From the NCBI RefSeq assembly GCF_031127815.1, contig NZ_JARXHY010000004.1, forward strand, positions 310,001 to 374,000: 64,000 nucleotides of DNA, in the 5' to 3' direction. This document shows positions 44,437 to 61,708 of the stretch, in pieces. Positions within the stretch are counted from its first letter, which is position 1; each line of letters opens with the position of its first letter. This DNA is from Pelagicoccus sp. SDUM812003 (GTDB taxonomy: Bacteria > Verrucomicrobiota > Verrucomicrobiia > Opitutales > Opitutaceae). The notes beneath the pieces are model-generated. The model did no database searches. It was not told where the DNA came from and was given only the letters and a program-made list of their open reading frames with translations. Both the position numbers and the translations under genes were made by a program.

Positions 44437-47400
44437 ATGAATTCCTGTTTGCTTGGAGGCTCTCGAGCCCTGTGGATGCTGTCGATCGTCCTGTTCGCGC
44501 TTGGTCAGGCATGGGCGAAGATCGGCGATCGGGAGCTCGATCGGCTGAAGTTCAGTCCTTTGGAGGGGTTGAGCTCCGGGCCGAGCGGCCAGGTCAGCGC
44601 CATCGTCCAAGGATCGAATGGCTTCATCTGGTTCGGAACCCGCGAAGGGGCCCATCGGTACGACGGATACGATTTTCGAACCTATTCGAACCGAAAGGAC
44701 GACCCGCTCTCGCTGGTCAACAGCGTGGTGCTGGCCTTTCAGATCGATCACTTGGACCGGATCTGGATCGGCACGGAAAAGGGAGTCTCTCGCTACGTGC
44801 CGGAGACCGATTCGTTCGAGAACTACCTGCTGGATCCGGAGGAGCGCAACAGCAACTTGGCCAATCATAGCAACGCCTTCGTGGTCGACAGCGAGAATCG
44901 GCTCTACGTGAGCTCCGAGTCTGGGTTCGTGTACCGCTACGAAGAGGCCCGCGATCGGTTCGAGCCTATCAACGCGGTTCCCTTGGGAATCATCAAATCG
45001 ATGGTTATCGACGGAGAGGATCGCATATGGGTCGGAGCGGATAGCCGTCTCCATCGTTTTGATACGCGAGAGGGTGGGTTGGTGACTTACGAGGAGCCGT
45101 TTCGCTCGGACGATCCTTCGTTGGATAACTTTATCGAAAGCATCGCGTATGTCGACGACGAGACGATCTGGCTGGGTACGGCCGCCGACGGCGCCGTCCG
45201 GTTCAATAGCGTCAGCGAGGTCGCCGAATCCATGCCTCGGGCGTTCGAGGGAGAGTCTTACGCTCACACCTTGCTGATCGATGATCAGAAAAACCTTTGG
45301 ATTGGCCACTCTTCAGGGATCACCTTGTATCCAAATGGTCAGGACGATCCTATTCGCTATCACTCGGACCTCAAGGAAGGGCCTCTTCCTCGCAGCGGGA
45401 TCCACTCGCTGCTGATCGATTCGCAAAGCAACATCTGGGCTGGCTCGGCGTATCATGGGATCTTCGTTTCATCCAACAACAAGCGCTTTCATGCCTTGCC
45501 CCAGTACGCAGGGCTCAGTGGCAGCGACAAGGCGGTGATTTCGGCCCTGCTCGAGGATCGGGAGGGCAATCTCTGGATCGGTCGCAATTCGCAGGGTGTC
45601 GACATCCTGCCTGCGTCGGGCGGTGCGATGATCCGTTTGCGAAACGATCCGTCCGATCCGCGCAGCATACCGCTGAATACGGTTTTCGATCTGTTTCAGG
45701 ATAGCTTTGGCGAGATTTGGCTCGGGATATATCGTGGCGGATTGAACAGGTACGATCCAGAAACTGGATACTTCGAACGCTTCGTGCACGATCCCGATGA
45801 CCCGTCTAGCATTGGTTCGAACGACGTGAGAGGGATTCAGGAGGATGAGCTCGGAAACCTCTGGGTGCTCACCCATGGGCGTGGCGTTTCCTACTTCGAT
45901 CGGGATTCGGAGACCTTTGCGCGCCTCAGGCAGGACCCGAGCGACCCTGACGGGTCGCTGATAGACGACTGGGCGAACGACATCCTCTATCTCGATGGCG
46001 ACTTGTACGTGGGCACGTCGATCGGTTTTTCCATTTTGGATACCAGAACGGGCCAAGTGGAGAATTTCGATTCGGATCCCCAGGACCCGGAGTCGCTCTC
46101 CAATCCGGTTATCAACACCTTCTTTCTGGATTCCAAGAATCGGCTATGGATCGGCACCGGCGACGGAATCAATTTGTTCGATCCGCTGACCAAGCGGTTT
46201 CGCAGCTGGAGTGTGGAGGAGGGGCTGCCGTATCGCATCGTCAACGCCATCCAAGAGGACGACGCGGGGCAGTTATGGATCGGCACTGACAACGGACTTG
46301 CCCGCTTCGATCCCGAACGCGAAGGGATGGACACCTACGACAGCGGCGATGGCCTGTCGGACAACGCGTTCTACGCGCGCGCCGCCATCAAGAGCAGCGA
46401 TGGCAGGTTGATGTTCGGGATGAAAAACGGCGTCACCTACTTCCGGCCGGAGGAAATCGAGGACAACACCTATGCTCCGCAGGTTTGGATCACGGACTTC
46501 AAGGTGTCGAATCAGTCCCTGAAGGTAGACCCTGATGGTGAGGGGAATGGGACCATCCAGCGCAGCATATGGGAGTTGGACAAGGTGACCTTGGACTACG
46601 ATCAGAAAGTGATATCGATCCATTTCGTCGCTCTGAATTTCATCCAGTCTCATAAAAACGAATACGCATATCGTCTTCTGGGGTTCGACGATGATTGGAA
46701 CCTCGTAGGGTCTCGGCGGGAGGCGACTTATACCAATTTGAATCCGGGGAACTACGTCTTCGAAGTGAAGGCCTCGAACAACGACGGGTATTGGAATGAA
46801 ACGCCGAGGAGCTTAGGCATCGTCGTGACGCCGCCGTTCTGGGGCACGCTTTGGTTTCGCTTGTCATCTGGAATCATGGTGGTGGCGCTGCCGATCTTCC
46901 TCGCCATGCTGCGGCTTCATCGGGTCAAGCGTCAGCGCGCGAAGCTCGCTTCGATCGTGGAGGAGCGCACTCGGGACCTCCGATCCTCCAATGAAAAGCT
47001 TGAGAGCGCCTACCAGTTGCTGGAGAAGAACCAGCATCAGATCACGGTGCAGAACCAGGAGCTCATCACTCACCGGGAAAACCTGGAGCTGATGGTTTCG
47101 CAACGTACCCGCGAGCTGGAGGATGCGAAGGAGAAGGCGGAGCGGTCGGATCGCTTGAAGTCCGCCTTTTTGGCCAACATGTCGCATGAGATCCGAACGC
47201 CAATGAACGCGATAGTCGGTCTGCTGGAGATCCTGCGCCTGGAGAGCATCGATGACGAGGAGCGCCGCCGCTACAATGATGTGATCAAGCAGAGCAGCAA
47301 TACCTTGCTGACCTTGATTGACGATATCCTCGACTTGTCGCGCATCGAGTCTGGGGAGGCTACCATACAGCTCAGAAACTGCGACATCGATGAAATATGC

Positions 47401-48345
47401 GACGAGCTGTATTCGCTATATAAATACGTAGCTGAAAAGGAGTCGGAAGGCGCCATCAGGCTGGAGCTCATCCGAAACGGAGAGTCCGGGCTCAGGAGGG
47501 ACGAGGGCGAGCGATTGATCGCGAGCGGCTTTGATCCCGTGCGTCTGAAGCAGATCCTCACCAATCTGCTCTCAAACGCCATAAAGTTCACCGAGAAGGG
47601 CGTCGTTTCCTTTGGATACAATTCCCAGGTCGTTGACGGGACGCTTCGGCTGGAGTTTTTCGTGTCGGACACAGGTATTGGCATTCCGGATATGCACTTG
47701 GACAAGGTTTTCGATCGCTTCCACAAGGTGGAGGACTACGGGGACAAGGTTTATCGCGGGACGGGACTTGGACTCACCATTTCCCAGCGGCTTGTCGAGA
47801 TGATGTCGGGACGAATTTTCGTCGCTTCCAAGCTCGGCAAGGGCACGCGTTTTTCCGTGCGTTTCGATCGAGCTCTAGAGGAGGGGCGACCCTTGGATTC
47901 CCCCGCGTCTACGAGCGTGGTCCGCCCGGCGTCCTTGAGGGAAGGCGGCGCAGAGTCGATCGACGGATCGCTGAGCGAGGTGTCGCTGCTGGTGGTGGAG
48001 GACGAGGAGCCGAACTACCTGGTGATTTCCAAGTTTCTGGAGCGTAGCGAAGCGAGACTGGACTGGGCTAGAGACGGGGAGGAGGCGAGGCGCCTTTTTT
48101 CGGAGCGCTCCTACGACCTGGTTCTTCTGGATGTCAAGATGCCGATCATGGACGGCTACGAGGTCCTGGAGTATATCAGATCCACGGATACTGAAATCCC
48201 GGTGGTGATGCAGACCGCCTACGCCATGGAGTCCGACCGGCAGAAAGCGTTTCGCGAGGGGGCGAGCGATTTCATCGCCAAGCCGTTTTCCGAGGACTCT
48301 CTCGTCGCGAGCATCCAGCGTTGCCTGAGACAGCGTTCCGCCTGA
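44437..48345 (+). CDS. Reg_prop hybrid two-component sensor kinase
   Basis: A 1302-residue membrane hybrid kinase. After a signal/anchor segment (SRALWMLSIVLFALGQAWA), the periplasmic part (~35-690) contains two beta-propellers of two-component-regulator repeats (GLSSGPSGQVSAIVQG, SNGFIWFGTREGAHRYDGY and many WIGT repeats), then a Y_Y_Y domain (~695-795, YAYRLLGFDDDWN). A membrane helix (~805-825), coiled coil, HisKA with His917 (LANMSHEIRTPMNAI), HATPase (~1020-1150, GTGLGLTISQRLVEMM) and receiver with Asp1232 (YDLVLLDVKMPIMDGYEVL) follow. It lacks the C-terminal AraC domain of Bacteroides HTCS proteins, so output must pass to another protein. The ligand is unknown; relatives sense polysaccharide fragments. 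Confidence 0.93.
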   Translation: MNSCLLGGSRALWMLSIVLFALGQAWAKIGDRELDRLKFSPLEGLSSGPSGQVSAIVQGSNGFIWFGTREGAHRYDGYDFRTYSNRKDDPLSLVNSVVLAFQIDHLDRIWIGTEKGVSRYVPETDSFENYLLDPEERNSNLANHSNAFVVDSENRLYVSSESGFVYRYEEARDRFEPINAVPLGIIKSMVIDGEDRIWVGADSRLHRFDTREGGLVTYEEPFRSDDPSLDNFIESIAYVDDETIWLGTAADGAVRFNSVSEVAESMPRAFEGESYAHTLLIDDQKNLWIGHSSGITLYPNGQDDPIRYHSDLKEGPLPRSGIHSLLIDSQSNIWAGSAYHGIFVSSNNKRFHALPQYAGLSGSDKAVISALLEDREGNLWIGRNSQGVDILPASGGAMIRLRNDPSDPRSIPLNTVFDLFQDSFGEIWLGIYRGGLNRYDPETGYFERFVHDPDDPSSIGSNDVRGIQEDELGNLWVLTHGRGVSYFDRDSETFARLRQDPSDPDGSLIDDWANDILYLDGDLYVGTSIGFSILDTRTGQVENFDSDPQDPESLSNPVINTFFLDSKNRLWIGTGDGINLFDPLTKRFRSWSVEEGLPYRIVNAIQEDDAGQLWIGTDNGLARFDPEREGMDTYDSGDGLSDNAFYARAAIKSSDGRLMFGMKNGVTYFRPEEIEDNTYAPQVWITDFKVSNQSLKVDPDGEGNGTIQRSIWELDKVTLDYDQKVISIHFVALNFIQSHKNEYAYRLLGFDDDWNLVGSRREATYTNLNPGNYVFEVKASNNDGYWNETPRSLGIVVTPPFWGTLWFRLSSGIMVVALPIFLAMLRLHRVKRQRAKLASIVEERTRDLRSSNEKLESAYQLLEKNQHQITVQNQELITHRENLELMVSQRTRELEDAKEKAERSDRLKSAFLANMSHEIRTPMNAIVGLLEILRLESIDDEERRRYNDVIKQSSNTLLTLIDDILDLSRIESGEATIQLRNCDIDEICDELYSLYKYVAEKESEGAIRLELIRNGESGLRRDEGERLIASGFDPVRLKQILTNLLSNAIKFTEKGVVSFGYNSQVVDGTLRLEFFVSDTGIGIPDMHLDKVFDRFHKVEDYGDKVYRGTGLGLTISQRLVEMMSGRIFVASKLGKGTRFSVRFDRALEEGRPLDSPASTSVVRPASLREGGAESIDGSLSEVSLLVVEDEEPNYLVISKFLERSEARLDWARDGEEARRLFSERSYDLVLLDVKMPIMDGYEVLEYIRSTDTEIPVVMQTAYAMESDRQKAFREGASDFIAKPFSEDSLVASIQRCLRQRSA

Positions 48346-48438: not shown

Positions 48439-49692
48439 ATGCACCCGAACATTCAAATAGCGATCCGATTTCTTCTAGCCAAGAAGCGCTCGATGTTGAT
48501 GAGCCTTTGCGGAATCGCGTTCGGCGTCGGATTCTTCATCGTCACCCAGGCCCAAGTGCGCGGCTTCGAGGAGTTCTTTATCAAGACCATTCTCGGCACC
48601 GACGGAGCGATCCGCATCGAGGACAAGTTTCAGAACACGCTGGCCCAAGTTGAGGCGGCGTCGAGCCGGGGAGCGTCGACCACATTCTTCGTCGCCGACC
48701 GATCGAATCGTCGCTACGTGGAGGGCGTGGAGTATCCTGATGAGGTGATCGAGGGGATTCGCCAGCTGTCCAATGTGGCGTCCACCTCCTCGGTTCTGAA
48801 AGGGCTGATTTCGGTGCAGAGCCCGCTGCGCACCGAGTCGGCCCAGGCCTACGGCATCGTTCTCAACGACCACCTTTCGGTCTCCGACCTGGAGGAGCAG
48901 ATTCTGTTTGGGGATATCGAAACCTTTCGCGACACGCCGACGGGCTTGCTGATAGGACGCAAGCTGGCTGATCGATTGCAGGTGCGGGTAGGCGATTCCC
49001 TTATCATAGAGCGGCAAGGGGTGAAGAATCGGTTTCGCATCAGCGCGGTCTACGAGACTGGCGTCTCCGACATCGACCGGGTGCGCCTGTTCATGCACCT
49101 GGATCAGGCCCGTTCCATTTTGCGCAAGCCCCATGGAGTGAGTTTCTTACAGGTCTCGCTTTTCGATCGCGATCGCGCTCCCTACGATGCCGCTCGCATC
49201 GAAAGCATCACCCAGCACAGCGCCGCTCCGTGGCAGGAGCGCGAAAAGGTTTGGCTCGATGTCTTCAAGGCCCTGCAGGTCTCGGCGGTGATCACGGTCT
49301 CGACCATCATCTTCATCTCGGGCCTCGGCATGTTCAACACGCTGGTCATGATCGTGATGGAGAAGACGCGCGAAATCGCCATCCTGCGCTCCATGGGATA
49401 CAGTCGCGCCGACATCTCCTCGGTCTTTCTTTGGCAGGGGGGCATCGTGCTTGTCCTAGGCGTTTTGATCGGCTTCGCCCTAGGCGCCGGAGTGACCTAT
49501 GGCATCTCCAACCTGCCGCTGCGCATTCGCGGCATCTTCTCCACTGACAGCTACGTGGTCGAATGGTCGCTGGCCCACTATTTCTGGGCGGCGGTGACTG
49601 CGATCATCATCGTCATGTTCTCCAGCTTGGCTCCCGCCCGCCGAGCGGCGCGCTTGGTGCCTGGCGATGTTATTCGAGGGACCTCAGCATGA
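48439..49692 (+). CDS. FtsX-like ABC transporter permease (LolC/E type)
   Basis: A 417-residue inner-membrane permease of the LolC/LolE/MacB type. The layout is one N-terminal helix (MLMSLCGIAFGVGFFIVTQA), a ~230-residue periplasmic domain, and three C-terminal helices with the FtsX signature FISGLGMFNTLVMIVMEKTREIAILRSMGYSR. Only one permease is encoded, so it would act as a homodimer with the ATPase next to it. Its job is likely extraction of lipoproteins or another hydrophobic cargo toward the outer membrane, but LolE-like and exporter-type permeases are hard to tell apart by sequence. It overlaps the ATPase gene by 4 bases. Confidence 0.88.
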   Translation: MHPNIQIAIRFLLAKKRSMLMSLCGIAFGVGFFIVTQAQVRGFEEFFIKTILGTDGAIRIEDKFQNTLAQVEAASSRGASTTFFVADRSNRRYVEGVEYPDEVIEGIRQLSNVASTSSVLKGLISVQSPLRTESAQAYGIVLNDHLSVSDLEEQILFGDIETFRDTPTGLLIGRKLADRLQVRVGDSLIIERQGVKNRFRISAVYETGVSDIDRVRLFMHLDQARSILRKPHGVSFLQVSLFDRDRAPYDAARIESITQHSAAPWQEREKVWLDVFKALQVSAVITVSTIIFISGLGMFNTLVMIVMEKTREIAILRSMGYSRADISSVFLWQGGIVLVLGVLIGFALGAGVTYGISNLPLRIRGIFSTDSYVVEWSLAHYFWAAVTAIIIVMFSSLAPARRAARLVPGDVIRGTSA

Positions 49693-50387
49693 GCGCCACC
49701 AAAACGAGCGCCGAAATCGCGATGGAATGCCGATCGCTCCATAAGTACCTGGGCGAAGGCGAAACTCGAGTGCACGTGCTGCGTGGCGTGGACCTCTCTC
49801 TAGAGCGAGGGCAGGTGAGCGCGGTGGTCGGACCTTCGGGCTGCGGCAAGAGCACCTTGCTTTATCTGCTCGGACTGCTCGATCGGCAGGATGGGGGCAC
49901 GATCCATGTGAACGGGCAGGAGGTTCCGCAGGACCGCGACGGCACCCATACGCGCCTTCGCTGCGAGCACATCGGCTTCGTTTTCCAGTTCCATTTCCTG
50001 CTTCCTGAATTCTCCGCTCTGGAAAACGTCATGCTGCCCATGCGCAAGCTCGGTCGGCTCTCGGAAGAGGAAATGGTCAGCCAGGCCCGCGAGCTGCTCA
50101 GCGAAGTCGGTCTGGGGCAGAAGACCCATCGCCGTCCTTCGCAGCTTTCCGGAGGGGAGCAGCAACGCGTGGCCATCGCTCGCTCCCTCGCCAACCGGCC
50201 CACCGTGCTGCTGGCGGACGAGCCCACCGGAAATCTCGACCTGAAGAACTCGCTCATGGTCTTCGACATGCTCACCCGGCTGGCCAAGGAGCACCAGCAA
50301 GCAGTGCTGATCGTTACGCATAATCCCGAACTCGCCAAGCTTTGTGACCGAATCCTCCGCATGGAGGATGGTCTTTTCGTTGAGTGA
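49689..50387 (+). CDS. ABC transporter ATPase (LolD type)
   Basis: A 232-residue ATP-binding subunit. Walker A GPSGCGKST, the Q-loop FVFQFHFLLPEFSALENVML, signature LSGGEQQRVAIARSLANRP and Walker B VLLADEPTGNLD are complete. FQFHxLLPEFxALENVMLP closely resembles LolD, which powers lipoprotein release. The start is the ATG overlapping the permease stop, so the two subunits are translationally coupled. A longer frame upstream is only a shadow of the permease gene. Confidence 0.93.
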   Translation: MSATKTSAEIAMECRSLHKYLGEGETRVHVLRGVDLSLERGQVSAVVGPSGCGKSTLLYLLGLLDRQDGGTIHVNGQEVPQDRDGTHTRLRCEHIGFVFQFHFLLPEFSALENVMLPMRKLGRLSEEEMVSQARELLSEVGLGQKTHRRPSQLSGGEQQRVAIARSLANRPTVLLADEPTGNLDLKNSLMVFDMLTRLAKEHQQAVLIVTHNPELAKLCDRILRMEDGLFVE

Positions 50388-50771: not shown

Positions 50772-51428
50772 ATGTCAAAAGTGTTCCCTAAGTGGTCCAA
50801 TGCGCTGCCACTGAAGATCGTTGTATTTCTCATCATCTTCGTGACGACGCTGCTTGCCGGCATCACCTATTATGTGACGCCTAAGTACACTCGGGTCGGG
50901 TACGAGCCGAGCCAGCCTGTGCCTTACGATCACAGCTTTCACGTCGGCGAGCTCGGCTTGGACTGTCGCTATTGCCATGACAAGGTCGACCAATCGGATG
51001 TGGCCAACATTCCAGCGGCGGACACCTGCATGAAGTGCCATAGCATGATCAAGACCGACAGCCCGTTGCTGGCGCCGGTGCGCGAGAGCTACGAGTCCGG
51101 TCTGCCTATCGCGTGGAAACGTATTCACGAGGTGCCGGACTACGTCTATTTCAGCCACCAGGCTCACGTGACGCGTGGCGTTTCCTGCGTGGAATGTCAT
51201 GGTCAGGTCAACGAAATGGCGGTGGTGAAGCATGCCGAGCCCATGAGCATGGGCTGGTGTCTCGACTGTCACCGCCACCCGGAAGAAGTTCTTCGGCCCG
51301 TCGACAAGGTTTACGATCTCGATTGGGAGCATCCCGGCGGCAAGGTCGCCCAGATCAGGGACGGGCTCAAGCTCGTTGAAGAACGCAACATTACACCTCC
51401 TCAAAGCTGCACAGGCTGCCACCGATGA
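50772..51428 (+). CDS. actA: Alternative complex III subunit ActA, pentahaem cytochrome c
   Basis: A 218-residue cytochrome anchored by one N-terminal helix (LKIVVFLIIFVTTLLAGITY). Five CxxCH haem c sites are visible: CRYCH, CMKCH, CVECH, CLDCH and CTGCH (the last at the C-terminus), matching ActA with five haems. It receives electrons from ActB and passes them on toward ActE or soluble carriers in the periplasm. It is the first core gene of alternative complex III, a quinol:cytochrome c oxidoreductase unrelated to bc1. The start overlaps the following gene at its end by 4 bases. Confidence 0.96.
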   Translation: MSKVFPKWSNALPLKIVVFLIIFVTTLLAGITYYVTPKYTRVGYEPSQPVPYDHSFHVGELGLDCRYCHDKVDQSDVANIPAADTCMKCHSMIKTDSPLLAPVRESYESGLPIAWKRIHEVPDYVYFSHQAHVTRGVSCVECHGQVNEMAVVKHAEPMSMGWCLDCHRHPEEVLRPVDKVYDLDWEHPGGKVAQIRDGLKLVEERNITPPQSCTGCHR

Positions 51429-54400
51429 AACGCGCACCTTACACTCATCCTGAAACAGCGGAACTGTCAGGCCCGCGCTACTGGCGCAGCCTAGACGACC
51501 TGTCGCAAACCCCGGAATTCCTCGAGCAAGTCGAGCGCGAATTCGGACCGGAAGCTTCGGAAATGAACGAAGTGGATCGTCGCCACTTCTTTAAGATCAT
51601 GGCGGCGTCCTTCGCTATCGGAGGCATCGGCTTCTCCGGATGTCGCCGCCCGGAGTCGCATATCCTGCCGTATTCCAAGATGCCGGAGCATCAGGTGCCT
51701 GGTCAGGCGCTTTATTACGCCACCGGCTTTCCACTGCGTGGGGAAACCTTGCCGCTTTTGGTGGAAACGCATACCGGGCGTCCGACTAAAATCGAAGGCA
51801 ACGCCGATCACCCGGGCTACCGAGGGGGCACCACCCGCAAGGCCCAGGCGGCCATTCTCGACCTTTACGATCCCGACCGCGCCACGGCCCACGCCAAGGG
51901 AGCGGCCAAGCTCAGCAACGCGGACGTCTACGATCTGCTCGCCAAGCTGAACAAGGACTACGCCGCGAACGAAGGGCAGGGCCTGGCGGTGCTGACCGAA
52001 AGCGCCAACTCGCCGACGCGTCGCCGCTTGAAGAAGGCGTTTCTTCGGGCCTTCCCGAAGGCTCAGTGGGTCGAATACGACGCCGTCGAAGTCAAAAGCG
52101 GAGCCATCGCCGCGGCGCGCTTGACGGGCAACGCTGCCGCTCTGCCCAAGTACGACCTTTCCAAGGCCGAGCGCGTGCTTTCCGTCGATGCGGATTTCCT
52201 CGACGAGGAATTGGGCTCGGTCCAGTTCTCCAAGCAGTTCGCCGACGGGCGTCGTTTGCGCTCGAGCTCCGATCAGATGAACCGGCTCTACGCGGTGGAA
52301 AGCAACTTCTCCCTCACCGGTGGAATGGCCGATCACCGCAAGCGTCTGGCCTCCAGCCAGATGGTGGCCTTCCTCGCCGCTCTCGCTCTGGAGCTGGAGC
52401 TCGGAGTGGAAGGCAACGCGCTCACACCCGTTCTGGAGCCGCTTGCCGCTAAGCTCGACGCGGAAACCAAGGAATGGATCGCCAAGTGCGCCGAAGACCT
52501 GGCCGCCCACAAGGGCAAGAGCTTGGTCTTCCCCGGTCAGCACCTCGCTCCGGAAGCCCATGCCTTGGCCCTGCTGATCAATGAAAAGCTGGGCAATCTG
52601 CGCCAGACGGTATCCATCGCATTGGTGGACAATGGCCAAGCCGCCAGCATTCGCGATCTCGCCTCGTCCATCGAAGAAGGTGGCGTCAGCTCCCTGCTCA
52701 TCTCTGGAGGCAATCCCGTTTACAACGCTCCTGCGGACCTCGATTTCGTCGGCTTGCTCGGCAAGGTGGATCAGGTGATTCGTCTCGGCTACTATTTCGA
52801 CGAGACCTCCGAGGCGTCCACCTACCATATCGCGCAGGCCCACTTCCTCGAAGCTTGGGGCGACGGCGAGACCTACCATGGCGACGTCGTGGCCCAGCAG
52901 CCCATGATCCTGCCACTTTTCGACGGGCTTTCGGAAATCGAGACTTTGGCTCGACTCGTCGGCTCGGCCAACGCCGACGGCTACAGCCTGGTTTACGAAA
53001 CCTTTCAGACCGCCAACGGAAGCGCCGGCAAGCGCGGCTTCGACAAGTTTCTCAACGAGGGATTCCTGACCCGCGGATTTCGCGCCTCGAACGCCAACAT
53101 CTCAGGTGTTGAGCTGGCGGGCATGCTGCGCGGCTACCAGGCGCCAGCGGCGCCCACCGAAGACTCCTTGGAGGTTCGCTTCCTCAACGACGCTTCGGTG
53201 GACGATGGCCGCTACGCCAACAACGGCTGGCTGCAGGAATGCCCCGATCCCATGACCAAGCTGACCTGGGACAACGCCATCATCGTCAGCCCGCGTTTGG
53301 CCAAGAAGCTTGAGATCGTGGCCCCGGATTCCATGATTCAAGTGGCTCGCAAGAACCCGAACAAGGTTCGCGACGGACGTCAGTTCGCCCCCGTGGCCAC
53401 CCTCAAGGTGGGCGGTCGCGAGATCACTGGCGCCATCCACATCCAGCCGGGTCTGGACAACTACACGGTCGTCTTGCCGCTTGGTTACGGACGCTCCAAG
53501 ACCGGCCGTGTCGGCACGGGCTCCGGCTTCAGCGCCTACAAGCTGCGCACCGCTTCCGCCTTCGTTTCCGGAGCGAGCATGGACCTGACCGGTGACACCT
53601 ACCAGTTGGCCGAAACGCAGGAGCACTGGTCCATGGAAGGTCGAGCCATCGTTCGCGAAGCCAACCTCGACACCTACGCGAAGGATAGCGAGTGGGTTTC
53701 CCACATGGGAATGGAATCCCATTCTCCTGCGGTTTACGGCGACGCGAAGGATGAATCCACGCAAAAGAAGGTAACCACCACCCCGCGTGGCGGCTCCATC
53801 TACGAGCATCCGAATCTCACTGGAATCCACCAGTGGGGCATGAGCATCGACCTCAACGTCTGCTCCGGCTGCAACGCTTGCGTGATCGCCTGTCAGAGCG
53901 AGAACAACATTCCCATCGTCGGCCGAGACCAGGTACGTCGCGGGCGCGAGATGCACTGGATCCGTCTCGACCGCTACTTCTCGTCCGGATCCTCCGACAA
54001 TACGGAGATCCCCGAGGACCCGCAGGTTTCCCTCCAGCCCATCGCGTGCATGCAGTGCGAAACCGCGCCTTGCGAGACGGTTTGCCCGGTGAACGCTACG
54101 GTTCACGACGAAGAAGGCCTCAACGCCATGGCGTACAACCGTTGCATCGGCACCCGCTACTGCGCCAACAACTGCCCGTACAAGGTTCGCCGCTTCAACT
54201 TCTTCGATTACCAGCAACGTCAGCTCGACAAGCTCTATCTGGGGCCGCTCGCTCCCAAGGGCATGCCGGAGCTGGTGCAGATGGCTCAGAATCCGGACGT
54301 ATCCGTGCGCATGCGCGGCGTGATGGAGAAGTGCACCTTCTGCGTGCAACGCATCAACCAGGCCAAGATCGCCCAGCAGGCCAAGGCCGGAGACAGCGGC

Positions 54401-54760
54401 GACGTTCGCGTTCGCGACGGAGCGATCAAGGTGGCATGCGAGCAAGCCTGCCCGACGGACGCTATCGTTTTCGGCGATCTGCTCGATACGGAAAGCCGCG
54501 TCTCGGTGCAGCGCGACAACGAGCGCACCTACTCGCTGCTCGGCTATTTGAACACTCGTCCGCGCACTACCTTTATGGCGCGAGTCCGCAATCCGAATCC
54601 GAAGATGCCAGACTACTTCGACCAGCCGCTTTCCAAGGTGGAGTACAAGAAGAAGGCCTACGGTGACAAGAAGCGCCCAGTGACGGGCATGGATGAAAGC
54701 TACGACGCCCATCAGGGCGGTATTTCCAATGATCAAGGCAATGACGGAGGACACCACTAA
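51425..54760 (+). CDS. actB: Alternative complex III subunit ActB, Fe-S protein
   Basis: A 1111-residue periplasmic fusion of a molybdopterin-oxidoreductase-like part without cofactor (~60-770) and a four-cluster ferredoxin-like part (~810-1010). A Tat-type RRHFFKI lies at ~52-58, with GC after the hydrophobic stretch. The C-terminal half carries Cys sets [39 protein letters not shown] and CEQAC: 15 ligands, suiting three [4Fe-4S] clusters and one [3Fe-4S]. It carries electrons from quinol at ActC to the haems of ActA and ActE. It overlaps actA by 4 bases and the actC start by one base (TAATG). Confidence 0.96.
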
Positions 54761-56181
54761 TGGCTAGCGCTAGCTCCCATTCTCACGAAGCGAGACCCGC
54801 CATCCTCGAGGAGGTGAATCCGGTCGACATCCCGCGCCAACCGTGCGTGGCGAACGACCGCAGCTTCAACTGGATCACCGAAAAGGTCTGCGGTATCATC
54901 GAAGAAAAGACGCCGACTTGGTGGTGGGTGTGCTTTATCATCGCGTGCTGCATCGCCAGTTTCACGGTTGTCGGTCTCGTGTACCTGACCGCCACCGGCG
55001 TCGGCGTCTGGGGCTTGGCCAATCCGGTGAACTGGGGGTGGGCCATCGTGAACTTCGTTTTCTGGATCGGCATTGGTCACGCGGGAACGCTGATCTCGGC
55101 GATCCTCTGCTTGCTCAGACAGAAGTGGCGCACCTCGATCAATCGCGCCGCGGAGGCCATGACCATCTTCGCGGTGGTTTGCGCGGGCCTGTTTCCCGTC
55201 TTCCACGTGGGCCGCGTCTGGTTCGCTCTTTATCCGGGCTACCTGTTCCCATTCCCGAACGCCAACGCCATCTGGCCGAACTTCCGTTCGGCCCTGCTGT
55301 GGGACGTGTTCGCGGTCTCGACCTACGGTACCGTATCGGTGCTGTTCTGGTACATCGGTCTGATTCCCGACTTCGCCACCGTGCGCGACCGGGCGAAGAG
55401 CAAGATCCGCAAGATCGCCTATGGCATCGTGGCCATGGGCTGGCGCGGCTCGAATCGCCACTGGAGCAACTACGAAATGCTCTACCTGCTCTTGGCAGGT
55501 CTCTCCACGCCGCTGGTACTCTCGGTGCATACCATCGTATCCTTCGACTTCGCCATCTCTCTGGTCCCGGGCTGGCACACCACCATCTTCCCGCCTTACT
55601 TCGTGGCAGGGGCGATCTTCTCCGGTTTCGGCATGGTTTTGACGCTGATGCTGCCGCTGCGCGCCGTTTATGGCCTGCAGGATCTCATCACGCAGTACCA
55701 CATCGATTGCATGACCAAGATCGTTTTGGCCACCGGCACCATGGTCGGCTACGCCTACGGGATGGAGTTCTTCATCGCGGCGTACGGGGCCAACGACTTC
55801 GAAATCTTCGCCTTCGTGAACCGCGCCTTCGGCAACTACGCCTGGGCTTATTGGATCATGATCTCCTGCAACGTCATCTCGCCGCAGTTCTTCTGGTTCA
55901 AGAAGATCCGCGAGAACACCACGCTGGTTTGGGTGATTTCCATCTTCGTGAACGTGGGCATGTGGTTTGAGCGCTTCGTCATCACCGTGACCTCGCTCTC
56001 TCGCGACTTCCTGCCATCCAGCTGGGGCTACTACAGCCCGACGGTGGTGGACATCTTCACCTATCTCGGAACCTTCGGTCTGTTCTCGGTGCTGTTCCTC
56101 CTGTTCCTACGTTTCGTGCCATTGATGGCCATGGCGGAAATCAAGGCGGTCACTCCTCAAGCTGACCCTCACCACCACTAA
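54760..56181 (+). CDS. actC: Alternative complex III subunit ActC (NrfD-like)
   Basis: A 473-residue polytopic membrane protein of the NrfD/PsrC family with about ten helices. It carries the menaquinol-binding region facing the periplasm next to ActB. Recognisable parts are [20 protein letters not shown] (helices 2-3), [20 protein letters not shown] and [17 protein letters not shown] good GGAGG lies 14 bases before the ATG, inside actB. Paired in the complex with the similar ActF. Confidence 0.96.
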
Positions 56182-56206: not shown

Positions 56207-56764
56207 ATGGCGGACAAATTTGGAATACTCGCTAAGTTCGACACCCCGGCCGACATCATGCATGCGGCGGAAAAGGTGAGGGACGCCGGCTATAAATGCT
56301 GGGACGTGATCACGCCGTTTCCCATCCACGGGATGGATGCGGCCATGGGCTTGAAGCGCTCGCTGGTCCCGCGTTTCACCATCTGCGGCGGTACGCTCGG
56401 ATTCATCACCGGGATGAGCATGATCTTCATCACTAACGCGTCTAGTCTGGAACTCCCGTTCTACATCAAGGGCTATGAGATCCTGGTTGGCGGCAAGCCG
56501 CTGTTCAGCCCCTTTTTCGCGTTTCCGGTTTCCTACGAACTCACCATCCTCTTCTCGGCATTCGCGTCCATCGCTGGCATGTTCATCCTGAACAAGCTTC
56601 CGATGCACTACCATCCGGCGCTGAAGATCGACAAAGTGGCCGAAGCCTCGGACGACAAGTTTTTCCTCTACATCGAGAAGAACGATCCGCAGTTCGACGA
56701 CGCCAAGACGCGCGCCTTCATCGAAGGCCTGCATCCGGTGGAAATTTCCGACATGGAGGACTAA
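56207..56764 (+). CDS. actD: Alternative complex III subunit ActD (DUF3341)
   Basis: A 185-residue membrane protein with two helices and cytoplasmic N- and C-terminal parts. The family opening is present: FGILAKFDTPADIMHAAEKV, YKCWDVITPFPIHGMDAAMG. It is a structural subunit without cofactors in known complexes. Located 25 bases after actC. Confidence 0.95.
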   Translation: MADKFGILAKFDTPADIMHAAEKVRDAGYKCWDVITPFPIHGMDAAMGLKRSLVPRFTICGGTLGFITGMSMIFITNASSLELPFYIKGYEILVGGKPLFSPFFAFPVSYELTILFSAFASIAGMFILNKLPMHYHPALKIDKVAEASDDKFFLYIEKNDPQFDDAKTRAFIEGLHPVEISDMED

Positions 56765-56768
56765 CGCG

Positions 56769-57379
56769 ATGCGCTACGTATACCTGACATTTATTCTCAT
56801 CGTCGTGGCGGTGGTTTCCGTTCTCGGATTCCGCGGCACGAAGTTCACCAAGCCGCCGATCGAGGTCTTTGACGACATGGACCACATGCCGAAGTACCAG
56901 CCTCAAGCGGAAAGCGCTTTTTTCGCGGACGGACGCGTCGACCGTCTCCCAGTGCCGAACACGGTGGCTCGCGGAACCTTCATCGAAAACGAGTTCATGG
57001 CGACCGGAAAGGTCGACGGCGCGTTCGCCAACGGTTTCCCCATCGCGGTCGACAACGCGGCCATGGAGCGCGGGCAGGAACGCTACAACATCTACTGCAC
57101 CGTCTGTCACGGGGCGACGGGCGATGGCGCCGGACGTACCGCGGACTATGGCATGACTGCGATCGCGAATCTCACTGCCGCTCCCTATACCGATATGAAG
57201 GACGGAGAGATCTTTCACTACATCGGGCATGGCAGCCGTAGCGGACGCATGTATGGCTACAAGGAAAAGCTTTCGGTCGAAGACCGCTGGAAGGTCGTTC
57301 TCTACGTTCGCGCATTGCAGCGGGCGGCGAACGGCTCGGTGAATGATTTAACTCCCGCGACTAAGGAGGAGCTAGGACT

Positions 57380-57383
<4 letters not shown>
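56769..57383 (+). CDS. actE: Alternative complex III subunit ActE, monohaem cytochrome c
   Basis: A 204-residue lipoprotein- or helix-anchored cytochrome with one CTVCH haem site (~residue 111) and a likely axial Met in the GMTAIANLT or RMYGYK region. The N-terminal hydrophobic stretch (YVYLTFILIVVAVVSVLGF) anchors it; there is no lipobox Cys. A GGAGG lies 9 bases before the ATG. It takes electrons from ActA and passes them to the terminal acceptor. The stop overlaps actF by 4 bases. Confidence 0.94.
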
Positions 57384-58609
<1,226 letters not shown>

Positions 58610-58620
58610 GCGTTTACGAA

Positions 58621-58899
58621 ATGAGTGCCCAAGCTCACACACCCTCTCGTAGTTCCTTTCCGGTCGTGGTAGCGATCGTCGGCAGTTTCCTGCTCTTCTG
58701 GTTCCTCACCAGCGAAGTGTATGTCGACGAGCCCGAAGCTGCCGCTCCGGCCGCTCTCGACATCCCGACCCTCGCGGAGCACCAAGGCAAGGCGGAGTCC
58801 GCTCTGGAAAGCTATTCGGTAACCGATGCGGCGAACGGCAAGGTTCGTCTCTCCATTGAGCGAGCTAAGGAACTCGTGATCGCGGAAAAGGCGAAGTAG
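58621..58899 (+). CDS. Small single-pass membrane protein between ACIII and the oxidase-like genes
   Basis: A 92-residue protein with an N-terminal helix (FPVVVAIVGSFLLFWFLTSE, ~13-32) and an acidic, Ala-rich periplasmic or cytoplasmic tail (~35-92). I cannot name a family. It lies 11 bases after actF and 42 bases before the CcoN-like gene on the same strand, so it is co-transcribed and may be an assembly or linker subunit. The ATG at 58621 is used; an upstream in-frame start at 58588 lies within actF. Confidence 0.72.
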   Translation: MSAQAHTPSRSSFPVVVAIVGSFLLFWFLTSEVYVDEPEAAAPAALDIPTLAEHQGKAESALESYSVTDAANGKVRLSIERAKELVIAEKAK

Positions 58900-58941: not shown

Positions 58942-60423
58942 ATGAATTTGATCTGCAACCTCTTCTCATCGCTCTTTCCGACTTTGGAAGGCTCGGCCGC
59001 CGATCGCGACCGTGAGCAGGCGATCGATTCGTCGATACGGTTCGCGGTTCTTGGGTTGGTCAAAGGCTCGGTCTTCTGGCTGCTTATCAGTTCGGTGCTT
59101 GGTTTGGTCGTCTCCATCAAGCTGCACAGCCCGGACTACCTCGGCGACTCGGAGTTCCTCACCTACGGAAAGGTCTATCCAGCTTTTTGGAACGCCCTGG
59201 TTTTCGGTTGGCTCTTCAATGCGGGACTCGCCTGCTGCGCCTGGATTTTGGCCCGCCTTTCCGGCCGTCCCTCGGGCAATAGCGGATTGCTGGCGATTTC
59301 CAGCGGAGCTTGGAACGTCGCGGTGGTGATCGGTTTGATCGGCATTTTCCGCGGTGAACTGAGTCCCTACCGCATGTTGGAGTTCCCGTCCTATGCGGCG
59401 CCGTTTCTCTTCGCTGCCTTTGGAGGTATCGGCTTGTGGATCGTTCTCACCTTCAAAGCCCGCGCCTACCGGTCGGCCTTCGCTTCCCAGTGGTACGCGT
59501 TAGCGGGCGTGTTTTCCTTCGTCTGGATCTACACCGTGGCGCAAGTCATGATTTTCTGCCTGCCCGCGCAAGGGGTTTTCCAAGCGGTCGTGGCTAGCTG
59601 GTTCAAGGGGAATCTCTTCGGATTGGTGATCGCTCCGTTCGCCTTCGCGACGATCTACTACTTGATCCCCAAAGCTCTTGGGCAGCACATCGTCGGCTAC
59701 CGTCAGGCGGGCATCGCTTTCTGGAGCTGGATCATCTTTTCCAGCTGCAGCGGCCTGGCTGCCTTGGTGAGTGGTCCGTTCCCGGCTTGGGTGGCGTCAG
59801 TCGGCGTGGTGGCAAGCTTTGGCCTGTTCCTGCCGATCACGATCTTCTCCATGCAGTTTCTTTCCAGCTTGCTGGCGAGCTTTTCCAAGATTTGGGATAC
59901 CATATCCATCCGATACATCTTTTACGGGGTGGTGGCCCTCATCGCTTCCACGCTGTTGATCATCGTCGGTTCGCTGCGCAGCGTGCAGGACACGGTGCAA
60001 TTCAGCCAGTTCGATGACGGAGTGCGCTTCCTGTTTCTAGCTGGATTCGCGGGCATGAGCTTCATGGGAGCGCTCTACTACATACTGCCGCGATTGCTGA
60101 ACAAGGAGCTGGCGAGCGCCGGATTGGCCGACCTTCAGTTCTGGGTGCAGGGCCTGTCGATTTTCGTCATTGCGCTCTGCGCCATCACTGGCGGCATCGC
60201 TCATGGATCCTTGCTTAACGGCAGCACAGCCGATGCCGTAGCGATACTGCAGAGCACTCAGTCCTACCTTGTTCTCGCCACCATTGGCTACGCAATGTTC
60301 CTGTGCGGCAGCATGGCATATGTCGTATCCTTCACGTGGATGCTCCTAGCTCCACGCAGCGAAAAGGAAAAGTCCGCTGACCTGATCAAGTCGGCTCCAG
60401 AACTGGAGTACACTCCACTATGA
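58942..60423 (+). CDS. CcoN-like oxidase subunit I lacking all haem and copper ligands
   Basis: A 493-residue, ~12-helix membrane protein aligning with cbb3-oxidase subunit I (CcoN): YGKVYPAFWNALVFGW, GNLFGL...ATIYYLIPK, PFPAWVASVGVV and GALYYILPRLL sit where family landmarks are. In a working CcoN six His bind haem b, haem b3 and CuB. Here their positions hold F82, G223, A273, A274 and residues of RFLFLAG at ~362-368. The only His are H62, H249 and H421, all elsewhere. The active-site Tyr region (IIFSSCSGL) is also changed. It therefore should bind no haem b or copper and cannot reduce oxygen. Frame and length are intact and it overlaps the next gene by 4 bases, so it is not a decaying pseudogene. 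Confidence 0.85.
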   Translation: MNLICNLFSSLFPTLEGSAADRDREQAIDSSIRFAVLGLVKGSVFWLLISSVLGLVVSIKLHSPDYLGDSEFLTYGKVYPAFWNALVFGWLFNAGLACCAWILARLSGRPSGNSGLLAISSGAWNVAVVIGLIGIFRGELSPYRMLEFPSYAAPFLFAAFGGIGLWIVLTFKARAYRSAFASQWYALAGVFSFVWIYTVAQVMIFCLPAQGVFQAVVASWFKGNLFGLVIAPFAFATIYYLIPKALGQHIVGYRQAGIAFWSWIIFSSCSGLAALVSGPFPAWVASVGVVASFGLFLPITIFSMQFLSSLLASFSKIWDTISIRYIFYGVVALIASTLLIIVGSLRSVQDTVQFSQFDDGVRFLFLAGFAGMSFMGALYYILPRLLNKELASAGLADLQFWVQGLSIFVIALCAITGGIAHGSLLNGSTADAVAILQSTQSYLVLATIGYAMFLCGSMAYVVSFTWMLLAPRSEKEKSADLIKSAPELEYTPL

Positions 60424-61046
60424 ACAGAGGTCCTTTCATATTTCTCGGAGTCCTCATCGTAGTCTCGCTCTCCTGGGCTTTGACTTTGGTGAAACCCATT
60501 TCCGAAGCTGGCAATCTCTCCGCCATCGGCTCGGGCGCTGATCGCATTCCCAGTCTGATGACGGGAGCGGAGCACCAAGGTCGGGAAACGTATCAGGAGC
60601 TGGGTTGCGTGGCCTGTCACACCCAGCAAGTGCGGGCGGTCTCCGGTTCGGATGTGGAACGCGGCTGGGGCGAGCGCCAGACCGTGGCGCTTGATTACAT
60701 CGACCAATCGCCAGTCTTCACTGGCGACAATCGCTTTGGACCGGATTTGACCAATGTCGGGGCTCGTCGCCCTGACGTGGACTGGCACCTTTTGCATCTT
60801 TACAATCCCCAGATCACTTCGCCTGGCTCCAACATGCCGCCGTACGGTTTTCTTTTCGAGACCCGTCAGATCGTGGGCGAGGCTTCCGAGCGCGCTTTGG
60901 ACCTCCCGCAGGCTTTCGCTGTCGCTCCAGGGTACGAAGTGGTTCCCACCCGACGAGCGGAAGCGCTCGCCGCTTACTTGGCTAGCCTGAATATCAGCTA
61001 CGAGATCGAGACCGCGCCGTCTCCTGAAAAGCTCTCCTACAAGTAA
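60420..61046 (+). CDS. ccoO: CcoO-like monohaem cytochrome c
   Basis: A 208-residue cytochrome c of the CcoO type, anchored by one N-terminal helix (FIFLGVLIVVSLSWALTLVK). The haem site is CVACH in YQELGCVACHTQQVRA, with the CcoO-type continuation GDNRFGPDLTNVGARRPDVD, WHLLHLYNPQ and PPYGFLFE (axial Met in SNMPPYG). It overlaps the CcoN-like gene by 4 bases and the next cytochrome gene by one. The haem site is intact although the CcoN-like partner has lost its cofactors. Confidence 0.88.
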   Translation: MNRGPFIFLGVLIVVSLSWALTLVKPISEAGNLSAIGSGADRIPSLMTGAEHQGRETYQELGCVACHTQQVRAVSGSDVERGWGERQTVALDYIDQSPVFTGDNRFGPDLTNVGARRPDVDWHLLHLYNPQITSPGSNMPPYGFLFETRQIVGEASERALDLPQAFAVAPGYEVVPTRRAEALAAYLASLNISYEIETAPSPEKLSYK

Positions 61047-61708
61047 TGGAAGACAATCGCAACCAACAGGAACTGCCTGAGCTCGACGCCAGCCGTGCCA
61101 ATGACGAGAGCGTCATTCGGGTGCACGCCCAGATCCGTCGCACTCCCATTGCCGGCTCGCCCATAGCGTTCTTCACGACCATCGCCCTGATCATCGTTTT
61201 CGTCTTTGGCTGGTTCTACTTCCGTCGTTATTTCGCGGGAGGGGATAGTCACGCCTACGTGGCGGACCGCGAACAGATCGCGGCCATGGAAGCGTACCTG
61301 AACCGACCGAAGGAACCTGCCGGACCGGTAGTCGTCGACGGGGGAGCTCTGTACGCTCAGCAGTGCTCGGCCTGCCACCAGGCGAACGGGCAGGGGCTCG
61401 CGGGCGCGTTTCCTCCTTTGGCCGGATCCGAGTGGGTGACCACGGGTGACGGCGAGCTGCCGATCAAGATCCTGCTCTCCGGTCTCGGCGGAGAGATCAC
61501 CGTAAAGGGGCAGACCTACAACGGCGCCATGCCCGCTTTTGGAGCGGTCTTCGACGATGCTGAAATCGCGGCGGTGGTGAACTACATCCGCGGCTCCTGG
61601 GATAATGAGGCCAGTGAAGTGACGGCGGAGCAGGTGGCTGCGGTGCGAGCGGATACCGGATCGCGCGGGACTTGGACCGCTGCGGAGCTGCAGAGCCACT
61701 TCGAATAG
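61046..61708 (+). CDS. Membrane-anchored monohaem cytochrome c (CcoP position)
   Basis: A 220-residue cytochrome with a long cytoplasmic N-terminus, one helix (SPIAFFTTIALIIVFVFGWF, ~40-60) and a single class I haem domain (YAQQCSACHQANGQGL, axial Met in YNGAMPAFG, then VVNYIRGSW). A true CcoP has two haem domains; this has one, so the name CcoP is not used. It is co-transcribed with the CcoO-like gene and could hand electrons on to a separate oxidase. Confidence 0.9.
   Translation: MEDNRNQQELPELDASRANDESVIRVHAQIRRTPIAGSPIAFFTTIALIIVFVFGWFYFRRYFAGGDSHAYVADREQIAAMEAYLNRPKEPAGPVVVDGGALYAQQCSACHQANGQGLAGAFPPLAGSEWVTTGDGELPIKILLSGLGGEITVKGQTYNGAMPAFGAVFDDAEIAAVVNYIRGSWDNEASEVTAEQVAAVRADTGSRGTWTAAELQSHFE

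Follow-up and report, generated by a model that had tools for sequence, protein, structure and literature searches.

What becomes of the subunit I of a haem-copper oxidase once every residue expected to hold its cofactors has gone, and why is its gene then kept beside those of another respiratory complex? The question is raised by a gene, here called N, in the 64,000-nucleotide stretch of Pelagicoccus DNA analysed here (the window). Subunit I of haem-copper oxidases ranks among the most conserved of bioenergetic proteins, and repeated loss of its cofactors with framework and operon place kept is a natural experiment on its non-catalytic roles; it also means that annotation-based oxidase inventories count dead enzymes as live. 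Our analysis suggests that N probably carries cytochromes between respiratory complexes rather than reducing oxygen. The gene order in the window is actABCDEF-orf-N-O-P, and with haem-c attachment motifs present in both O and P this is an N-O-P module linked to alternative complex III (ACIII):

50772..51428, + strand: ActA, pentahaem cytochrome c of ACIII (named by operon position; cytochrome c7/c3 Pfam matches)
51425..54760, + strand: ActB, fused ACIII subunit with molybdopterin-like and Fe-S parts (regions resembling QrcB and QrcC of NCBIfam, scoring under cut-off; order kept in relatives)
54760..56181, + strand: ActC, NrfD-like membrane subunit of ACIII (PF03916)
56207..56764, + strand: ActD (PF11821)
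56769..57383, + strand: ActE, monohaem cytochrome c of ACIII (PF13442)
57380..58609, + strand: ActF, membrane subunit of ACIII (by operon position, which its homologues in related loci share; no Pfam or NCBIfam matches)
58588..58899, + strand: 103-aa ORF between ActF and N (no Pfam or NCBIfam matches)
58942..60423, + strand: N, CcoN-like member of the COX1 family, none of the six haem/CuB ligands left (family searches, alignments)
60420..61046, + strand: O, CcoO/FixO-like monohaem cytochrome c (PF02433, 82.7 bits; C..CH and axial Met present)
61046..61708, + strand: P, CcoP-like cytochrome c (single haem motif; PF00034/PF13442; C..CH and axial Met present)

ACIII genes directly precede N-O-P in 17 of the 21 loci laid out and were not found beside N at the other four (L051, L055, L056 and L059), with the N frame of L055 beginning 311 bases into its contig, so that the upstream side lies beyond the contig start. 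The first-pass annotation of this DNA had described N as overlapping its neighbours: the downstream overlap is real (4 nt, 60420-60423), whereas upstream a gap of 42 nt separates N from the 103-aa ORF. This ORF overlaps the end of actF and exhibits one hydrophobic stretch by eye; its homologues are clear in L036 and L040-L042 (Pelagicoccus and near relatives) and weak (26-34 bits) in L048, L049 and L052.

N starts with ATG and encodes 493 aa. Its match to PF00115 (COX1) scores 107 bits against a cut-off of 34.8 and places it within the COX1 family, whilst the ccoN equivalog TIGR00780 is matched with 84 bits against a cut-off of 583, one that is also missed by the intact paralogue L003 (247 bits). 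Five PDB sequences matched N at E <= 0.1, titled cytochrome c oxidase or cbb3-type subunit I, and phmmer aligned residues 43-469 to CcoN of Pseudomonas stutzeri (3mk7, E 6.9e-13). The fold landmarks noticed in the first reading of the sequence (YY.IPK, P.P.W and Y...PR) are common to CcoN, with homology over nearly the whole length. An AlphaFold2 model of N from five alignment rows reached pLDDT 38 and pTM 0.23. In case of the copper site, His207, His257 and His258 are given as the CuB ligands of the P. stutzeri enzyme and Trp203 as a conserved Trp in the portions available of the account that we used (PMC3578206). Both the 3mk7 alignment and MAFFT place F82, G223, A273, A274, V361 and F363 in the six haem/CuB ligand columns (V361 just before the motif RFLFLAG, F363 inside it): none of the six His of a C-family oxygen reductase is present, the column of the active-site Tyr contains S267 and that of Trp203 contains S219. 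The only His left in N are H62, H249 and H421, with none in a ligand column, and the initial claim of complete ligand loss is thus borne out. For the remaining columns we assume P. stutzeri numbering, taking the haem ligands to be His60, His345 and His347, the active-site Tyr column in helix VII to be Tyr251 (Y256 of the CcoN of the window genome) and two further conserved columns to be Arg57 and His337; the affected codons of N are:

59185..59187, + strand: codon 82 (F), column of the low-spin haem b ligand His60 (alignments)
59608..59610, + strand: codon 223 (G), column of the CuB ligand His207 (alignments)
59740..59742, + strand: codon 267 (S), column of the active-site Tyr (aligned columns)
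59758..59763, + strand: codons 273-274 (A A), columns of the CuB ligands His257 and His258 (alignments)
60022..60030, + strand: codons 361-363 (V R F), columns of the haem b3 ligand His345 (V361) and the haem b ligand His347 (F363) (alignments)

The same ligand loss is found in 7/7 relatives within the genus at 70-75% identity to N, and a scan of genome contigs identified three named Pelagicoccus genomes and Verrucomicrobiae bacterium DG1235 with N proteins 74-75% identical. Homologues beside actABCDEF, a check that the first-pass annotation had proposed, commonly show the loss as well, which is thus not confined to the window strain. The view of N as one unusual case has to be divided: the ligand loss is real, but it recurs across the class, and intact forms hold the same operon place elsewhere. 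Among 135 operons across the class, 88 have a lost and 47 an intact N, figures that are not a prevalence since the operons follow hit lists from searches with partly ligand-free profiles. This set comprises the operons with ActC in the retrieved stretch; those without ActC were left out, as were the contig-end matches G038, G042 and G069 and some other matches. The 111 operons with ActC from within the order divide into 66 lost and 45 intact, the former missing six ligands in 31 operons, five in 31, four in two, three in one and two in one; of the 24 class operons outside the order, 22 are lost and two intact. Counted as distinct N proteins of the order (n=129), 60 retain all six ligands and 69 lack one or more. 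In a sample of 95 genomes, 81 gave a match and N could be read in 70: lost only in 44, intact only in 23 and both in three. Inclusion of N required 420 aa and 120 bits, frames being read from stop to stop so that they may contain residues ahead of the start; one ligand column is gapped in the N of L235.

Residual His are nevertheless scattered over the lost proteins: CuB3 is retained in 21/88 lost operons and Hb in 14/88, every one of the six sites still holds His in at least one lost operon, and the 69 lost proteins of the order have His 1, 16, 3, 19, 6 and 3 times at the six columns. Two N proteins of one genus (L127 and L131, f5/g78) read YHRHHH, with four of six ligands left, and GHSNNQ, with a single one; as read from these columns, the pair is loss caught partway. 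In L168 and L169 (f2/g50), which read QQHHHN and QQNHHN, the b3 ligand is kept, as are one or two of the CuB His, whilst both low-spin haem b ligands are gone.

The intact counterpart shows what the module was presumably derived from. Many N at 30-40% identity in the ACIII-linked position have all six His, and the active-site Tyr column contains Tyr in 60/60 intact N compared to 1/69 lost N; since this Tyr is always present, oxygen reduction is the more likely activity of the intact form, which looks like a genuine C-family member though its ccoN score is below cut-off. We also considered intact N as a nitric oxide reductase and rejected this assignment, the relevant column, which lies six residues ahead of the first His in the His pair, being Tyr in 60/60. 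Three genomes, G065 (80% complete), G070 and G135, have no COX1 match at E <= 1e-15 other than intact N. By its sequence, the ligand-free N is a pseudo-oxidase derived from the C family and stands outside the oxygen-reducing family. The window genome (G000) has both forms: the N next to ACIII is lost, whilst a second N-O-P set at another place (L003/L055) is intact. This intact set (L055:311-3172, at the start of window genome contig C5) resembles those at L056:10722-13587 and L059:10779-13701: all three are six-ligand N-O-P sets for which ACIII neighbours were not found, and each of their genomes also contains a ligand-free ACIII-linked copy. At L051:4983-7979 (G020), an N with six ligands lies within a 999-aa open frame, with no ACIII found adjoining; G020 additionally has an ACIII-linked copy of N.

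The first-pass annotation had asked for a separate functional oxidase in the genome, and other oxidase-type genes, of predicted activity, are indeed present. Besides the lost N, the window genome encodes four COX1 proteins, three of which NCBIfam assigns as a CtaD-like A-type subunit (C15), a fused cbb3 CcoN-O (C7) and the intact N (C5). The fourth (L004:1360-3744, window genome contig C9; 794 aa), which had 0 matches at 1e-10 in the part of NCBIfam scanned, we take by its sequence motif to be quinol NO-reductase-like. A PF00115 scan covered 95 genomes from the operon table, 52 with a lost and 43 with an intact N, and gave a best match of E <= 1e-100, above the N matches seen, in 52/52 lost and 41/43 intact genomes: the two genomes without a second strong COX1 (G065 and G135) are both intact, a contrast in the expected direction but small. 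In 16/22 lost operons outside the order, N is followed on the same strand by an A-type COX1 gene, its start lying 1.5-2.6 kb away, and one intact operon (f36) has it too. Since this gene occurs in f36 and 41/43 intact genomes have another strong COX1, neither feature alone explains loss. Within the order, 0/111 operons have an A-type oxidase gene after N (for 99 of them, the downstream sequence extends 2.7 kb or more), which makes a bridge to a specific partner weaker there. Five clusters were read and show N, O and P followed by A-type subunit I, which is preceded by a COX2-like frame in one of them. A COX2 gene with the CuA motif was present in 9/9 clusters examined (10 retrieved), one of them with intact N, and the idea that O and P substitute for a missing CuA subunit was dropped given the presence of this gene in the same cluster. 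In another verrucomicrobial isolate, ActABCDEF is followed by locus tags annotated as caa3 oxidase, according to the accessible part of its description (PMC13274419).

The cytochromes around N have kept their haem-binding motifs. C..CH is present in O and in P of 87/87 readable lost operons each, with one of each without an ORF found, and likewise in ActE of 88/88 lost operons, whilst ActA has its five C..CH in 82/82 readable ones. By aligned columns, which supersede a simple regex (O 56/87 lost, 42/45 intact; P 60/87 lost, 32/42 intact), the axial Met is found in P of 83/87 lost and 42/42 intact operons and in O of 62/87 lost and 45/45 intact ones. The haem of O may thus be drifting, its axial Met being present in just 62/87 lost operons and replaced by Cys in 10 and by His in 5 of the 87.

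The reading that we favour, with some reserve, is that N acts as a cofactor-free scaffold for O and P, which would serve as exit cytochromes of ACIII toward a separate live oxidase. Ancestrally, ACIII would have supplied electrons to a C-family oxygen reductase (CcoN-O-P) encoded in the same operon; with another oxidase able to reduce oxygen, N would no longer have needed haem b, haem b3 and CuB, and these sites would then have been lost many times independently. Its fold would have been kept because N would still serve as the membrane base on which O and P, the haem-c subunits, are held next to ACIII, with which a physical association is predicted. Electrons would pass from menaquinol through ACIII (ActB/A/E) to the haem c of P and O, and would leave either to the CuA of the A-type oxidase, whose gene several other families of the class have shortly downstream, or, in Pelagicoccus, through a soluble carrier to oxidases encoded elsewhere. 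In the available text on Flavobacterium johnsoniae, ActE is dispensable for electron transfer to aa3 (PMC8552683), which indicates that the exit route of ACIII is not fixed, and NrfD-like membrane subunits without redox cofactors, as described in the portions at hand of a further account (PMC8076601), offer a precedent for a cofactor-free membrane platform in such complexes. With O and P still candidate exit carriers, the handing on of electrons by ACIII becomes directly testable.

The strongest competitor, which we regard as unlikely, is that N is a passenger under relaxed selection: its site decays once another oxidase exists, and the protein lingers by translational coupling or by folding with O and P, with no new role. 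The many losses, the differing replacement residues and partial states such as YHRHHH and QQHHHN would all fit this, as would the faster evolution of lost N: dN/dS is 0.045-0.297 in 11 close pairs of lost N (0.045-0.079 in four Pelagicoccus pairs) compared to 0.025-0.074 in the six of seven intact pairs that were computable, ratios that are rough since dS is >1 in many pairs. Matches flagged with an internal stop (G033 and G068, the latter flag being absent from a second listing) point the same way. Lost N thus appears to be under constraint, if weaker than that on intact N, which would agree with partial relaxation. However, all of these ratios are well below 1, and this purifying selection agrees with the original suggestion that the loss was selected rather than decayed. 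Decay is also opposed by the length of the 88 lost frames (466-595 aa), with 0 retrieved N frames above 60 bits falling under 420 aa, by the haem motifs kept in every readable O and P, and by replacement sets common to many genera such as QQRHQQ. The pattern is that of a pseudoenzyme, in which catalytic residues are gone and other conserved residues remain under purifying selection: of the 142 columns at least 95% invariant in the 60 intact N, 52 are kept in >80% of the 69 lost N and 41 in <35%. Together with the six ligands, the Tyr, Trp203 and more His/Arg columns were lost (Trp at the Trp203 column in 4/69, Arg at the Arg57 column in 7/69, His at the His337 column in 6/69), whilst W209, W272 and Y368 (numbering of the window genome CcoN) are kept in 69/69.

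A somewhat less probable alternative, and a doubtful one in our view, is that N has gained a membrane function of its own (a quinol site, a proton path or a regulatory contact with ACIII) through a putative rebuilding of the cofactor cavity. Arg or Lys at the CuB2 or CuB3 column in 52/88 lost proteins, from several separate lost clades, argues for such a change and would perhaps fill the copper cavity; replacement sets are, moreover, conserved inside some clades. Between lineages, in contrast, the replacements vary, so that no single conserved new site emerges.

A tree of ActA+B+C+F for the order (110 rows) requires 17 changes of ligand state, 14 of them forced by starred branches, and that of the class (134/135 rows) requires 19, at least 16 of them forced by well-supported (starred) branches; the class tree, midpoint-rooted, has 25 maximal all-lost clades. 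Both are quick LG+G4 trees, with L153 left out of the order tree (short coverage) and one of the 135 rows out of the class tree. Change counts alone cannot separate gain from loss, but the regain of six His and the Tyr is implausible and we thus read them as losses. The full N tree could instead suggest a single origin of a dead N and its spread into many genomes through gene replacement, since 45/49 lost proteins form one group; this group contains long branches flagged as unsafe. We then took out the ligand columns and placed the 20 lost groups one at a time among intact N (quick LG+G4): 13/20 joined intact N of their own family, with support of at least 91 in four, 79 in one and at most 65 in eight. 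High support was obtained for f11/g96 (99), f19 (98) and f24/g72 (99), and the Pelagicoccus group was placed next to L018 (f1/g42) with 91, in agreement with the Act tree. The seven groups that fall outside their own family, a point for gene replacement, comprise groups 5, 6 and 19, placed with other families in a manner matching the Act tree (66, 96, 82), and groups 0 (L173), 1 (L168/L169/L172), 3 (L144) and 18 (L124), whose placements disagree with it (54, 94, 61 and 31). A single origin for nine lost N of four groups was rejected by the AU test (p 8.6e-6) on a 34-row subset that had been chosen by hand after the trees had been viewed. Given the single placements and the AU test, we take the 45/49 clade for long-branch attraction and not for a true clade. 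His persisting at each site in at least one lost operon likewise fits no single ancestor with all sites gone, and spread of one dead copy is thus very improbable. From the changes on the Act trees, the single placements, the AU rejection and the residual His at each site, the losses are best read as repeated and in situ. Continued oxidase activity of N, with haem or copper bound by other residues, is hardly credible: some lineages retain ligand His (CuB3 and Hb in the counts above), but the N of the window lacks all six ligands, the Tyr and Trp203 and has three His in total.

Genomes with methane-monooxygenase-family genes are among those with a lost N. Five class-level genomes of family f30 have 2-4 PF02461 (AMO/pmoA) matches each, and their ACIII-linked N reads SESHFV in four (one from a stretch without ActC) and ADAHQT in one, with five of the six ligands gone in 5/5; the ACIII-linked N of G461 gave no PF00115 match at 1e-6. 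The other COX1 matches in these genomes score 428-437 bits (two), 249-271 bits (one or two) and 177-199 bits (one); the last of these we take, in G434, to be NorB-like by its motif. For verrucomicrobial methanotrophs, a cbb3-type oxidase is listed beside ACIII, and a C-type neighbour of ACIII is stated to occur only in these organisms and in Opitutaceae, in the passages available of PMC8498564; ACIII-linked cbb3 genes of Methylacidiphilum have been tied to high oxygen affinity in what is available of PMC6688271. If the f30 genomes are methanotrophs as they seem, their ACIII-linked 'cbb3' set cannot be an oxidase. The wider claim, that across the class an oxidase module was turned independently some 16 or more times into a cofactor-free membrane adaptor with two cytochromes c that plugs ACIII into a live oxidase, and hence that the ACIII-linked 'cbb3 oxidase' of methanotrophs does not reduce oxygen, we consider an even call.

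Comparison with known systems shows where the module departs from them. N resembles CcoN of P. stutzeri cbb3 (3mk7) in its near full-length homology, its landmarks and its CcoO/CcoP-type neighbours, but differs by having no haem b, haem b3 or CuB ligands, Tyr or Trp203, with one haem motif in P and a link to ACIII. The ACIII-linked C-type cluster of Opitutaceae and methanotrophs, as far as the text available presents it (PMC8498564; a cbb3-type oxidase in methanotrophs), likewise has ACIII genes adjoining a C-type set, whereas the N cofactor sites are lost here in many families including genomes with PF02461. In the ACIII-aa3 supercomplex of F. johnsoniae, ACIII is coupled to an A-type oxidase; the portions available of the three accounts (PMC8552683, PMC8361435, PMC8498564) do not mention an N-O-P module, which is present here. 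Pseudoenzymes share the lost catalytic motif, a fold that is kept (in N presumably, to judge by sequence homology) and a likely scaffold role, and the excerpts available from two accounts (PMC10211241, PMC5106787) do not mention a haem-copper oxidase. A further case is the cbb3 of Nitrospina gracilis, with a CcoN-type subunit in which Trp203 is replaced and residues are added beside His207; loss of CuB His is not described in the available part of that account (PMC3578206), whereas in the window N all are gone. We found no report of a ligand-free CcoN among the best-ranked papers that our searches of the open-access literature returned. The ACIII-linked module is thus already known, and its dead state and the repeated loss appear undescribed in the open literature searched.

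Upstream of the act genes, the window encodes a 1302-aa protein (44437-48345) that by eye is hybrid sensor kinase-like with beta-propeller repeats, and this is followed by ABC-transporter-like genes at 48439-50387.
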